Shown piece by piece: positions 25,782 to 29,647 of a stretch of DNA of 36,485 nucleotides (positions are counted from its first letter, which is position 1; each line of letters opens with the position of its first letter). The translations under genes and the position numbers were made by a program. Origin of the DNA: a virus; IMG/VR virus record IMGVR_UViG_3300042922_000564, positions 1 through 36,485 of that record. One strand, written 5' to 3'. The notes beneath the pieces are model-generated. The model was given only the letters and a program-made list of their open reading frames with translations. It was not told the DNA's origin and did no database searches.

Positions 25782-25798
25782 ACGAGACAAAATTAGTA

Positions 25799-25846
25799 TG
25801 GAGCGGGTGATGGGAATCGAACCCACGCTATCAGCTTGGAAGGCTG
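25799..25846 (-). tRNA. tRNA-Gly (anticodon TCC), 3' half only: att core
   Basis: The minus strand reads anticodon arm CAGCCTTCCAAGCTG, variable region, T arm GTGGGTTCGATTCCCAT and acceptor strand CACCCGCTCCA with encoded CCA. The 5' half (acceptor GCGGGTG and D arm) is absent; the sequence diverges right after the anticodon stem. This is how phages that integrate into tRNA genes carry the gene's 3' end to restore it. It is not a functional tRNA in this window. Confidence 0.92.
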
Positions 25847-25996
25847 TTCCTAGGGTATGAACCAGATGGAATAAGCCGCATAATATTAGGTTTTCAGCGA
25901 GTCCGCGAGAGGAATGTTTCGCGGATTCGCGCATATGAACGCATATGGATGATTACGACCGGACACCAATCGGACACCAGGCCCGCCATGCTAATT

Positions 25997-26572: not shown

Positions 26573-26831
26573 GCAGCAGGCTGGAGCATTTATTGCTCCC
26601 CCGTGACACAAAAATGAACTAAGCACGAAATAAAACTTTAAGTCAATACTTTTTCATCGGTTGAATACATTTCTAATTAAACCCCTTTTAAGATAAAATG
26701 TATAGTTGAACTCGGATTCTAAAATAGGCTTTTCGACACCATAATTCGACAAACAAGTTATCGTTTTTATGGTATATTGTTTAATTAGCAAATAAAAAAA
26801 GCCACCTATAAGCCGGAGGCTTTTTTTATTA
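26573..26831. other. AT-rich intergenic region
   Basis: No gene is supported. It holds a small hairpin (GGAGCATTTATTGCTCC, about 26582-26598) after the XRE gene, with no T-run, and a bidirectional terminator at its right end. The rest is AT-rich with no recognised motif. Confidence 0.5.
26794..26827 (-). terminator. Terminator of the agr-like operon (possibly bidirectional)
   Basis: GCCTCC and GGTGGC arms (one mismatch) are flanked by seven A and seven T residues, so the structure ends in a T-run on either strand. It lies five bases after the LytTR stop codon. Confidence 0.75.
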
Positions 26832-27194
26832 TTAAGCATATACAATTGTGTGCGATGCTTTTCTTTTAATTTCTTTTATTCGATCTTCGGCCAATGGACA
26901 GTATTTTCCTCTTCTTTCGGCTGAAAAATAAGCCCGGCAAAAAAACTTGTCCACCAACTGAATTGCATCTACATTAATAACCCCGATCCTATCAGCACGA
27001 GCGAAATTGTATCCATTAAGCTTAAACAGGTCCAACCAGTAAACCAATGTTCCTACCGTATAATAGGTGTTTAATTCAGTATGCACAATAATTCTTTTTT
27101 CAGAGCGAAGATATTCAATAAATAAAATTTGATTTATAAGAACAGAGAATAATCCGCTGCCGTCGACTTCTTTTGTCACTGATATTGAGTGCAT
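26832..27194 (-). CDS. LytTR-type DNA-binding regulator without receiver domain (AgrA-like output)
   Basis: A 120-residue protein that consists of a LytTR domain only: ILFIEYLRSEKRIIVHTELN near the N-terminus, then 'YYTVGTLVYWLDLF' and FARADRIGVINVDAIQLVDK, matching the family's IxyIE, HT, FxRxHRS and VN..I positions. There is no phospho-acceptor receiver. ATG 27194 follows GGAGG; the frame's GTG at 27206 lies in that ribosome site. Last gene of the agr-like operon, so it is probably its transcription regulator, perhaps acting on the promoter at about 28510. Confidence 0.82.
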   Translation of the reverse strand: MHSISVTKEVDGSGLFSVLINQILFIEYLRSEKRIIVHTELNTYYTVGTLVYWLDLFKLNGYNFARADRIGVINVDAIQLVDKFFCRAYFSAERRGKYCPLAEDRIKEIKRKASHTIVYA

Positions 27195-27205
27195 ATAAAC
27201 CTCCA

Positions 27206-27325
27206 CTACAGCAATTCTTCTGGAACTTCCCCTTCGTACACATACAGTAAGCTCGCTGTACTAAGCGATCCTACAGCAACAACTGACAATAATGTTGCGA
27301 GTAAAGATAGAGCGCGACGTTTCAT
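27206..27325 (-). CDS. agrD: AgrD-like autoinducing peptide precursor
   Basis: A 39-residue peptide directly after agrB (three-base gap). It has a basic, amphipathic N-terminus (MKRRALSLLATLLSVVAVG) and a C-terminal tail YEGEVPEELL that matches the conserved AgrD recognition segment (DEVEVPKEL in S. aureus AgrD-I). Aligning those tails places SLLYV at residues 25-29 as the five-residue macrocycle, with Ser25 in the position of the usual Cys. The signal would then be a lactone, as known for S. intermedius. GGAGGTGA precedes the ATG. Exact N-terminal trimming cannot be predicted. Confidence 0.8.
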   Translation of the reverse strand: MKRRALSLLATLLSVVAVGSLSTASLLYVYEGEVPEELL

Positions 27326-27328
27326 TCT

Positions 27329-27850
27329 TCATTTCACCTCCCTCCATGTAATTAAAGTAAGACCTTGCACCAAAAAGCACAGAGTAAGTGTTGTTGATTG
27401 GAAGAAAAAACTGCTGGATACAATTAATACAGAAAGAATTTTTAAACCAGGATAGTATCGTCTCGGTATTCGATTTTGCTGTCTAATTCTAGAAGGCGCA
27501 TATACTATGTAAAGGATGATGCTAACTACATTGAGTATCTGAATATATTGCAATTCCAGGTGTATCAGAGAAAGTATTGTGAATGTAGTTGTTGTAGCTA
27601 AAACACACTTCATTCCCGACTTCAGATGAATACCTCCAGAAATTTGTCTTATAGAAGCAAAGACAATCAGTAGAATAATCACTTCCTTTGTCCGGCTGGT
27701 TACGAATGATACAAGTAATGTTCCAATAATAATGAAAGCCGTATTAAGCATAATGGCGAGTGAATATTTCAGGACAGCTACCGAAGCTTTATGATCGGGA
27801 ATATTTCGTTTTATCCCTTCTGCCATTTTTAATGCTAGTGTTTCAATCAT
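27329..27850 (-). CDS. agrB: AgrB-like peptidase/processing membrane protein
   Basis: A 173-residue integral membrane protein of the AgrB family. The catalytic pair is visible as His75 (ISGGIHLKSG) and Cys82 (MKCVLAT), seven residues apart as in S. aureus AgrB (His77/Cys84). About five to six membrane segments. It cleaves the AgrD C-terminal tail and forms the thiolactone or lactone ring. ATG 27850, after GGGAGAGGGAAG, overlaps the receptor gene's stop by eight bases; agrD follows after three bases. Confidence 0.92.
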   Translation of the reverse strand: MIETLALKMAEGIKRNIPDHKASVAVLKYSLAIMLNTAFIIIGTLLVSFVTSRTKEVIILLIVFASIRQISGGIHLKSGMKCVLATTTTFTILSLIHLELQYIQILNVVSIILYIVYAPSRIRQQNRIPRRYYPGLKILSVLIVSSSFFFQSTTLTLCFLVQGLTLITWREVK

Positions 27851-28472
27851 CTTCCCTCTCCCTTTTAAAAGAGTAGTACAAGAAAAACATAGAAAGCAGG
27901 AAGAAAACAAGAATATTCATGTAAATTTCTTTGTAGTACAGCAAAACAGATATGCCTAACAAAAAACCAATAATAGTTATTGTAAGCGCTATATCCTCAA
28001 ACTTAAATCGTAATTTCTCAAATTCAAAATTAAACCCTTTGCCCATGTGGTAAAGGAAATAGGCTCCGACTATAAGAACAATAGCGCTGATTACCTGCAG
28101 CAAATATCCATTTACGATACTATTATCTATTGCGCTTATTGATCCAAAAAACAATAACACAATGCAAGTCTGCGTCACAGCAAAAATCACATACCCGGCG
28201 ATCGTTGCAAGTAAAGAAAATATCAATGGAAGTTTTACCACAACTGTAAAGAAGATTGTAAATAACATGATACTGATTACCGGCGCAACATTTGCCATAG
28301 ATAAATCATTTCTCAGAAGATAACTTTGGAGGTTCATTAGAAGGATGAAAAAAAGCACTTGCCATGCGTACCAACTCCACTTAAACCTAAACAAGCACAT
28401 TATTAAAAAGTACATAGAGAACGCTTCAATAGTTGAAAAAAACATAAAACCTACGGGCTCCCACGACAACAT
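27843..28472 (-). CDS. Seven-TM membrane protein, AgrC-like sensor without kinase domain
   Basis: A 209-residue protein made almost entirely of about seven hydrophobic segments, ending in a short charged tail (SFKREREDD). The size and topology resemble the N-terminal peptide-sensing half of AgrC, but the dimerisation and HATPase domains are absent; the gene stops where the linker would begin. ATG 28472 is preceded by AGGTGG. First gene of the operon, overlapping agrB. It may be a receptor that controls the LytTR protein directly, or an exporter or immunity protein for the peptide. Family assignment rests on topology and context. Confidence 0.6.
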   Translation of the reverse strand: MLSWEPVGFMFFSTIEAFSMYFLIMCLFRFKWSWYAWQVLFFILLMNLQSYLLRNDLSMANVAPVISIMLFTIFFTVVVKLPLIFSLLATIAGYVIFAVTQTCIVLLFFGSISAIDNSIVNGYLLQVISAIVLIVGAYFLYHMGKGFNFEFEKLRFKFEDIALTITIIGFLLGISVLLYYKEIYMNILVFFLLSMFFLYYSFKREREDD

Positions 28473-28509
28473 GCAACACCACCTGACATAATTTTCATTT
28501 GACGCAATC

Positions 28510-28540
28510 ATTATACCGCCAAAAACCTAAAACCGTATAT
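28510..28540 (-). promoter_or_regulatory. Promoter of the agr-like operon
   Basis: A perfect TATAAT (28515-28510) lies 38 bases upstream of the receptor start. The -35 position holds ATACGG, far from consensus, so activation, for example by the operon's own LytTR protein, is plausible. No clear AgrA-type direct repeat could be identified. Confidence 0.6.
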
Positions 28541-28585
28541 CAGAATGTGCGACTTTTGCATACTTGAATATTCATGACATAAATA

Positions 28586-28653
28586 TATACTCGTACAAGT
28601 ATATTGTCAATAAATATTTAATACTTGTACGAGTATAACAATTTCTATATAAT
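28586..28653 (+). promoter_or_regulatory. Promoter of the RHH gene with two inverted 17-bp operator sites
   Basis: TATACTCGTACAAGTAT (28586-28602) is the exact reverse complement of ATACTTGTACGAGTATA (28621-28637). Each is itself nearly palindromic. The right site contains the -35 (TTGTAC, 28625-28630) of a consensus promoter with 17-base spacer and TATAAT (28648-28653). They are likely operators of the ribbon-helix-helix protein, autoregulated and possibly reaching the agr promoter to the left. Confidence 0.78.
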
Positions 28654-28664
28654 TACAGCAAAGG

Positions 28665-28886
28665 ATGGTGAGCATATTGGAGGAATCTAAAAGAAGCCCA
28701 GCATCACGGGCAAAGATGAAATACAACGCCAAAAACTATGAACGAATCCCCTTAGATGTCAAAATAGGCACCAAAGCAATCTATAAGGCTGCAGCTGCGG
28801 CAGAGAATCTAAGTCTAAATGCTTTTATCCAGAAGGCCATAGAAGAAAAAATGGATCGAAAATCAAAGGAAACCCCGCCAGCATAA
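28665..28886 (+). CDS. Ribbon-helix-helix (Arc/MetJ-type) DNA-binding protein
   Basis: A 73-residue protein: a basic N-terminus, the beta-strand region YERIPLDVKIGTKAIYKAAA and the helix 'ENLSLNAFIQKAIEEKMDRK', a pattern of Arc-like repressors. The start is uncertain: ATG 28665 abuts its AAAGG, while TTG 28677 has GGTGAG four bases upstream. It is divergent from the agr-like operon and likely binds the paired 17-bp sites before it. It could alternatively be an antitoxin, but no toxin gene is adjacent. Confidence 0.68.
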   Translation: MVSILEESKRSPASRAKMKYNAKNYERIPLDVKIGTKAIYKAAAAAENLSLNAFIQKAIEEKMDRKSKETPPA

Positions 28887-28906
28887 TCGTTGACGGGGTT
28901 TCCTTT
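28865..28906 (+). terminator. Strong terminator of the RHH gene
   Basis: AAAGGAAACCCCG (28865-28877) pairs perfectly with CGGGGTTTCCTTT (28894-28906). The stop codon lies in the loop. The arms give a T-rich end in both directions, so it may also protect against readthrough from the lysis genes. Confidence 0.8.
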
Positions 28907-28991
28907 ACATGATTTCTTGGATATCACCTGAAACTCCTAATAATGTGTCGTCCAGTAGTCTGTGTTGCCTGAATTGATTTGTAACCCATAC

Positions 28992-29011
28992 TCCCAAACG
29001 CTTGGGAATTT
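28992..29011. repeat. Dispersed palindromic motif, copy C
   Basis: TCCCAAACGCTTGGGAATTT, just after the endolysin gene. The core TCCCAA-ACGC-TTGGGA is palindromic, and 16 bases are shared exactly with copies A (13574-13589) and B (17740-17755). It could form a hairpin at the end of the late mRNA. Confidence 0.65.
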
Positions 29012-29636
29012 ACTTTTTTGCAACGACAAACGTCAACCATGCAAGCTCGGATGTTGTCAGTGTCCTTTTGTCGATCTTATCCAGCCAGGATGTGTCACTG
29101 ATCGTCTTAGCGTCCAGGAGCGCCTTAACTCCTGCGCGGAGTGTTGTCCATTGATAGTTTGACAGTTCCAATTCTTCGTCCTCCTTGATGGCCTCAACGG
29201 CCTTATTATATAGCTCCAACTCCGCCATGCGGCGGCGGACCAGCCCGGGCAACACATTGCCGCCGCCCTTGTTGTACTTGGTGATGTTATCGGCAATCTG
29301 CGCAATTGTGCGGCCCTTACAAAGCTGCTGCAGACTACCATTGCCGCAGTTATAGGTAAAGCTTACAAGAGCATCAAACTGGTTTTGATTGAGTTGCGCT
29401 GTCACCGGTACATAAGACGGGCTGTTAACGTATCCCTCATACTTGGCGAGATCCGTCACCAGCATGCTATCAGCCTGGGCCTGTGAGATAGTCATGCCCT
29501 CGTTAACATTAGGGCCATAGTGGCCCCAGCCAATTGTCCAATATTGCTCTGTCGGCACTGGCTTGTATGCCTTGAGGCGGCATCCTTCATAATTTTTAAT
29601 CAGCTTGATGCCCGTTCCTGATATTTTACGACTCAT
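29010..29636 (-). CDS. Endolysin, lysozyme-like muramidase (GH24)
   Basis: A 208-residue lysozyme of the T4/lambdoid GH24 type: catalytic Glu17 in KNYEGCRLKAY, TIGWGHYG at 34-41, 'LNQNQFDALVSFTYNCG' and 'GLVRRRMAELELY'. The C-terminal about 65 residues are an extra helical segment that could bind the wall. It hydrolyses peptidoglycan at the end of infection. ATG 29636 has GGGGG seven bases upstream. No signal peptide, so it relies on the holin directly upstream. Confidence 0.93.
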   Translation of the reverse strand: MSRKISGTGIKLIKNYEGCRLKAYKPVPTEQYWTIGWGHYGPNVNEGMTISQAQADSMLVTDLAKYEGYVNSPSYVPVTAQLNQNQFDALVSFTYNCGNGSLQQLCKGRTIAQIADNITKYNKGGGNVLPGLVRRRMAELELYNKAVEAIKEDEELELSNYQWTTLRAGVKALLDAKTISDTSWLDKIDKRTLTTSELAWLTFVVAKK

Positions 29637-29647
29637 TTCCATTCCCC

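Follow-up and report, generated by a model that had tools for sequence, protein, structure and literature searches.

The four-gene cassette and its recurrence

The window analysed here is a single IMG/VR virus record of 36485 bases (IMGVR_UViG_3300042922_000564). It belongs to a temperate phage and contains an agr-type cassette that is real, conserved and free of a kinase. The cassette spans 26832-28472 on the minus strand, where all four of its genes lie, and has the lysozyme gene (29010-29642) on one side and the integrase end of the genome on the other. The four genes are the following:

27843-28472, minus strand: MEM, a sensor-only membrane protein of 209 amino acids, assigned by homology to the AgrC position; the reading frame may also start at 28511
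27329-27850, minus strand: AgrB-type membrane peptidase of 173 amino acids with His75 and Cys82 (PF04647, 74.7 bits)
27206-27325, minus strand: AgrD-type peptide precursor of 39 amino acids (TIGR04223, 36.2 bits)
26832-27194, minus strand: stand-alone LytTR DNA-binding protein of 120 amino acids, no receiver domain (PF04397, 31.3 bits)

MEM and AgrB overlap by 8 bases, and gaps of 3 and 11 bases separate AgrB from AgrD and AgrD from the LytTR gene, which confirms the gene arrangement given in the original prediction. The AgrB with His75 and Cys82, the 39-residue AgrD and the 120-residue LytTR protein proposed there were likewise borne out by the matches to PF04647, TIGR04223 (where the score of the window AgrD lies above the cut-off of 19) and PF04397. 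His75 and Cys82 are invariant in six cassette AgrBs. All relatives of the LytTR gene matched the LytTR domain (41 of 41), and the best relatives of the cassette LytTR protein in the PDB are the LytTR domains of S. aureus AgrA (E 1.5e-6). MEM itself matched phrog_15604 (E 8e-7) and no family in Pfam or NCBIfam, and when 48 MEM proteins were compared with Pfam, no family came up consistently. Its AlphaFold2 model (pLDDT 77) shows seven long helices, in agreement with the predicted seven-transmembrane protein. Translation from 28511 would yield 222 amino acids; the start at 28472 has a ribosome site, GGTGG, and agrees with the relatives.

As predicted, neither a histidine kinase nor a receiver is present in the cassette, and there is no kinase frame at MEM. 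The loss of a kinase by frameshift, with an intact kinase frame hidden beyond codon 209 by a sequencing error, was considered and ruled out, because AgrB begins inside the end of MEM and because, across the Paenibacillus and phage portion of its family, MEM consists of the sensor alone; truncation is likewise excluded by the recurrence of the sensor-only architecture. The missing kinase and receiver could also indicate a decayed or accidental remnant of a normal agr locus. This reading is refuted by the ratios of non-synonymous to synonymous substitution (dN/dS) between the window and its closest relative (0.04 for MEM, 0.12 for AgrB and 0.15 for LytTR) and by the identical architecture kept across many genomes, so that it retains practically no probability.

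The MEM profile matches 85 of 100 genomes in the GTDB genus of Paenibacillus tengchongensis and 28 of 300 sampled Bacilli; beyond Bacilli, the search returned weak partial matches only. Among 95 distinct MEM genes in loci that were fetched via MEM matches and are thus not a random sample, 66 have genes for AgrB, AgrD and LytTR behind them in this order and on the same strand. The four-gene order, which the original prediction had proposed to look for in Paenibacillus prophages, was found in dozens of genomes, including SPbeta-like prophages. The closest MEM relatives lie on IMG/VR contigs (93% and 52% MEM identity), and the cassette is also present in the Brevibacillus phages Davies, Abouo and Emery and in the P. 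larvae phages Harrison and Paisley. In GenBank phages including Abouo, Davies, Harrison and Paisley the LytTR gene is labelled 'peptidase', 'dipeptidyl aminopeptidase' or 'hypothetical'; the peptidase-type label is in all likelihood mistaken.

Some copies lie at syntenic sites on the chromosome with no evident prophage around them, one of these between a thymidine kinase gene and spo0A, and one copy is plasmid-borne. The cassettes at loci L061, L062 and L064 are chromosomal, with a conserved site a few kb from spo0A in L061. In a quick tree of MEM, which has long branches, phage copies are interspersed among bacterial ones and at least seven label changes are needed; mobility of the cassette between phage and host is the best reading. 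Two complete cassettes stand in tandem at L169 (genome G033), and the Davies-type cassettes L005, L066 and L073 have two tandem MEM paralogues ahead of AgrB.

A probable kinase-less sensor paired with a stand-alone LytTR protein

The weakest MEM matches are the N-terminal halves of proteins of 406-450 amino acids that are encoded directly upstream of AgrB-AgrD. These halves match the MEM family in profile comparison (E 6.7e-17), and the C-terminal halves match AgrC/GHKL kinase domains (E 7.3e-8). The H-box histidine (RHDY in AgrC) is missing from all six of these AgrC-like proteins, so that their kinase half is degenerate, and a receiver-LytTR gene follows AgrD in four of the AgrC-like loci with downstream sequence (L155, L156, L157 and L159). 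AgrC-like receptors with a degenerate GHKL half were observed at L093/L094, L150-L154 and L155-L159, in operons with AgrB, AgrD and mostly a full receiver-LytTR protein. Locus L163 is intermediate, combining a sensor-only MEM with AgrB, AgrD and a receiver-LytTR gene. Since MEM is homologous to the sensor halves of AgrC-like proteins in operons of the order C-B-D-A, sequence comparison places MEM in the AgrC slot and the stand-alone LytTR protein in the AgrA slot. Taken together, the AgrC-like operons and L163 indicate that the order C-B-D-A is conserved and that kinase and receiver are missing in the cassette; the comparison is unrooted and gives no direction to this change.

In three loci (L012, L038 and L047) AgrB and AgrD are deleted and MEM and LytTR are intact; in L012 at least, what looks like a remnant of the AgrD tail persists. 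Between L038 and L047, the dN/dS values of MEM and LytTR are 0.08 and 0.09 at a synonymous divergence above 1, so the pair stays under purifying selection where AgrB and AgrD have been lost. Pairwise divergence in MEM correlates with that in LytTR at 0.91 over 67 loci, and at 0.74 when AgrB is partialled out; the partial values for MEM-AgrB and AgrB-LytTR are 0.41 and 0.18. Only the ranking of these correlations is used, because locus pairs are not independent.

Promoters and terminators

Five further elements flank the cassette or may control it:

28510-28539, minus strand: cassette promoter TATACG-N18-TATAAT, conserved upstream of MEM
28582-28610, minus strand: strong sigma-70-like promoter TTGACA-17-TATATT directed into the cassette; the arms of an inverted repeat, at 28637-28621 and 28602-28586, overlap it
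28665-28886, plus strand: divergent small Arc-like (ribbon-helix-helix) gene (phrog_13890, E 6e-15; phrog_582, Arc-like repressor, E 0.0013)
28862-28916, no strand assigned: strong hairpin between the lysozyme gene and the cassette, candidate bidirectional terminator (dG -28.2 kcal/mol, z -7.2)
26786-26838, minus strand: terminator hairpin with a T run, directly 3' of the LytTR gene (dG -17.7 kcal/mol, z -3.6)

The TATACG-N18-TATAAT promoter is nearly cassette-specific. It is kept in 21 group-A loci including the window, with at most two points of mismatch and the spacer free to vary, and a strict longer motif, TATACG-N18-TATAATTA, occurs just upstream of a MEM gene in 12 of its 13 occurrences in the 15 genomes or records searched. 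The window holds one exact copy. The non-canonical -35 box would fit an activator-dependent, self-regulated operon with the LytTR protein as the obvious candidate activator, and the conserved promoter is suggestive of peptide-dependent autoinduction. The TTGACA-17-TATATT promoter, whose inverted repeat has 17-bp arms and can form a hairpin, may provide a second control, with the product of the adjacent Arc-like gene as its candidate repressor; L002, the 93% relative, showed no such arrangement of Arc-like gene and inverted-repeat promoter ahead of its cassette.

Because of the strong hairpin toward the lysozyme gene and the terminator after the LytTR gene, the cassette is probably an independent transcription unit. 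The original prediction had suggested from the adjacency of the lysis genes that the cassette could be coupled to lysis. Direct transcriptional coupling was rejected as unsupported, because the terminator hairpin at 28862-28916 separates the lysozyme gene from the cassette; nor do its own promoters and terminator, and the lack of a second copy of the promoter motif in the phage, favour this idea.

Proposed peptide signalling and its alternatives

By its gene layout the cassette should work like agr. Shared with the S. aureus-type agrBDCA system are the AgrB peptidase, an AgrD with a PEEL-type tail and a ring nucleophile position, a membrane sensor in the AgrC slot and a LytTR DNA-binding domain in the AgrA slot. 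The cassette differs in having neither histidine kinase nor receiver, in its order C-B-D-A and in the undetectable homology of MEM to the staphylococcal AgrC sensor. With regard to agr membership, an AgrB and an AgrD with nucleophile and PxEL tail are thus present, whereas an AgrC with sensor and kinase and an AgrA with receiver and LytTR domain are not, so that two features by which agr is defined, the kinase and the receiver, are missing.

The peptides fall into two classes. Of 77 cassette AgrDs, 53 have a serine (52) or a cysteine (1) ten residues ahead of the tail proline, which is where S. aureus AgrD has its ring cysteine. The window AgrD has serine at this position, and its predicted ring is the serine lactone S-L-L-Y-V followed by YEGEVPEELL. 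The other 24 AgrDs (L005, L006, L007, L050-L054, L066, L073 and others) carry an invariant lysine at -9, and 23 of them are without serine or cysteine at -10; their peptides could be lactam-closed or linear. The catalytic histidine and cysteine of AgrB are retained alongside both classes.

We favour, though with some reserve, a self-contained, kinase-free peptide switch of the agr type in which MEM signals directly to LytTR. AgrB would cleave and cyclise AgrD to a short ring peptide, which alignment with S. aureus AgrD suggests to be the short-tailed, five-residue serine lactone S-L-L-Y-V. Once exported, this peptide would be sensed by MEM, the homologue of the sensor half of AgrC-like receptors, and MEM, having no kinase, would signal straight to LytTR at the membrane, whether it binds LytTR, releases it or activates it. 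LytTR would then raise its own operon via the TATACG-N18-TATAAT promoter, and on a phage the cassette would be a mobile module reporting lysogen or host density. Comparison establishes the four genes, their recurrent order, the sensor homology, purifying selection, the retention of MEM and LytTR without AgrB and AgrD, and the conserved promoter; peptide binding by MEM, direct contact between MEM and LytTR, LytTR binding to the TATACG promoter and the sign of the response are what we infer from them. The minimal switch of the original prediction is thereby supported in part, by a kinase-less receptor in the AgrC slot with its stand-alone LytTR protein, by the pair kept without AgrB and AgrD and by the intermediate loci, and the action of MEM on LytTR stays at the level of a proposal.

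Several observations weigh against this switch. In the profile comparison proposed earlier, MEM reached only E 0.065 with staphylococcal-type AgrC sensors; homology to these is not claimed, since this value hardly exceeds the controls. Foldseek, run with the MEM model on solved structures and on viral ones, returned no match. In nine loci MEM-AgrB-AgrD is present with no recognised stand-alone LytTR gene behind it, one of them carrying REC-LytTR instead. Finally, no second TATACG promoter, and hence no second LytTR site, was found in the window beyond a two-mismatch site at chance level.

The survival of MEM and LytTR pairs under purifying selection where AgrB and AgrD are lost also suits a different reading, in which MEM would be an inhibitor in the membrane that keeps hold of LytTR and answers a membrane or host cue, the AgrB-AgrD peptide being sensed by another receptor. 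The layout of a stand-alone LytTR regulator and a membrane partner in one operon, likely without phosphorelay, is that of the LytTR Regulatory Systems (LRS) HdrRM and BrsRM (PMC6193735). However, the regulator lies upstream of the inhibitor in all identified LRS (PMC6193735), whereas in the cassette MEM comes first and LytTR last, with AgrB and AgrD between them in 66 of 95 loci, and the streptococcal LRS have no AgrB or AgrD. MEM furthermore shares ancestry with the AgrC-like receptors of agr operons, and the few losses of AgrB and AgrD are equally explained by listening-only derivatives. We therefore regard an LRS-like pair as unlikely. The article that defines LRS mentions neither Paenibacillus nor autoinducer peptides and describes no such cassette (PMC6193735).

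Alternatively, as the original prediction allowed, the phage peptide might act on an AgrC-type kinase of the host, with LytTR competing with or reinforcing host AgrA on host promoters and MEM serving as accessory or decoy receptor. GHKL kinases occur in many Paenibacillus genomes, and the chromosomal cassettes share the promoter motif and have similar peptides, which makes cross-talk of phage copies with host copies plausible. The chromosomal copies are, however, likewise kinase-less, the phage cassette needs no host component to be complete, and no host kinase was tied to the cassette peptides in this analysis, which makes this explanation improbable. If the kinase-free switch holds, autoinducing peptide signalling would need no phosphorelay, a kinase-stripped sensor talking directly to a stripped AgrA; such a simple, portable two-protein receiver would be informative on agr evolution.

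Possible lysogeny control and the phage setting

Five MEM cassettes immediately follow genes whose products have the two MrpR domains, PF22822 (E 6e-23 to 1e-28) and PF22823. MrpR/YopR is the SPbeta master repressor (PMC10516654). In 7 of 12 surveyed mrpR loci of Paenibacillus SPbeta-like prophages (L186, L187 and L190-L194), yopQ-mrpR is followed by a complete cassette 107-144 bp downstream on the same strand; one further locus has a lone LytTR gene and one a degraded cassette. The LytTR members at mrpR loci match weakly (15-45 bits), one having no Pfam match. AimR (NF038310) was absent from all 11 mrpR-bearing genomes checked; in phi3T the yopQ-yopR pair lies close to aimR-aimP-aimX. The gene order supports a cassette that informs lysogeny, and does so for the relatives behind mrpR only. 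No MrpR was identified in the window phage, where lysogeny control by the cassette is a hypothesis that gains indirect weight because close cassette relatives stand directly behind mrpR. More broadly, and tentatively, the cassette may be the counterpart of arbitrium in Paenibacillaceae phages, setting MrpR-dependent lysogeny by a secreted ring peptide where AimR is absent; the window phage would base its decision on a sister copy, with phage-borne and host-borne copies listening to each other.

A further possibility concerns the output rather than the switch, namely that the main phage role is lysogenic conversion, altering the density behaviour of the host or interfering with its copy instead of serving the phage's own decision. 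The place between the lysis genes and the attachment end, terminator-bounded and with its own promoters, is usual for conversion genes, the promoter motif has no other copy in the phage, and phage and chromosomal copies are intermixed on the MEM tree. The relatives directly behind the SPbeta lysogeny repressor gene mrpR speak against it, as do the copies in Davies, Abouo, Emery and Harrison, which adjoin integrase or repressor genes. Taken conditionally, conversion has a chance approaching one in two.

With arbitrium (AimR-AimP-AimX) and MrpR/YopR the cassette shares a peptide module in the yopQ-mrpR lysogeny neighbourhood of SPbeta-like phages. In arbitrium the peptide is linear and imported and the receptor is a cytoplasmic RRNPP protein, whereas the cassette has no RRNPP gene. 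An earlier paper reported genes of agr type on the temperate Clostridioides phage phiCDHM1 and also noted that Davies, Emery and Abouo encode AgrB, AgrD and membrane proteins lacking a kinase (PMC3901668). phiCDHM1 differs in having an agrC with a HATPase domain and no regulator; Davies, Emery and Abouo bear this very cassette, for which the LytTR gene, the four-gene unit and the bacterial distribution were not noted (PMC3901668). To call the cassette 'without precedent' would therefore be too strong. Clusters of agr-like or cyclic-lactone type are mentioned in P. polymyxa (PMC7425212, PMC10938842), and a 2025 review refers to agr homologs in SPbeta-like phages, but its cited reference is a Listeria paper (PMC11945551). 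In the open-access papers searched, none was found to describe the four genes as a unit, how widely the unit occurs or its occurrence downstream of mrpR, subscription papers and preprints being outside the scope. The cassette is common in Paenibacillus chromosomes, and because it lies behind the SPbeta repressor in Paenibacillus prophages, the idea of another phage communication system with a different chemistry can be put to a direct test; viruses and bacteria of this kind may use the cassette to gauge each other's numbers.

The window phage itself encodes terminase, portal, tape measure, tail, replication, holin and lysozyme proteins, a helix-turn-helix repressor-like protein and a tyrosine integrase. 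It is of Paenibacillus type, and it is a temperate phage, as integrase and repressor-like genes accompany the structural, replication and lysis genes. A nucleotide search of phage records gave no near relative. The contig ends, 1-1128 and 35358-36485, are direct repeats of 1128 bases that are 94% identical, and the contig is therefore probably one turn round a phage genome with about 35.4 kb of unique sequence; a wrapped assembly with strain variation is the likely origin of the repeated ends. Beside the integrase gene, positions 25790-25847 have short matches of 92-94% to unannotated phage records and are a possible attachment site in the end of a tRNA gene.

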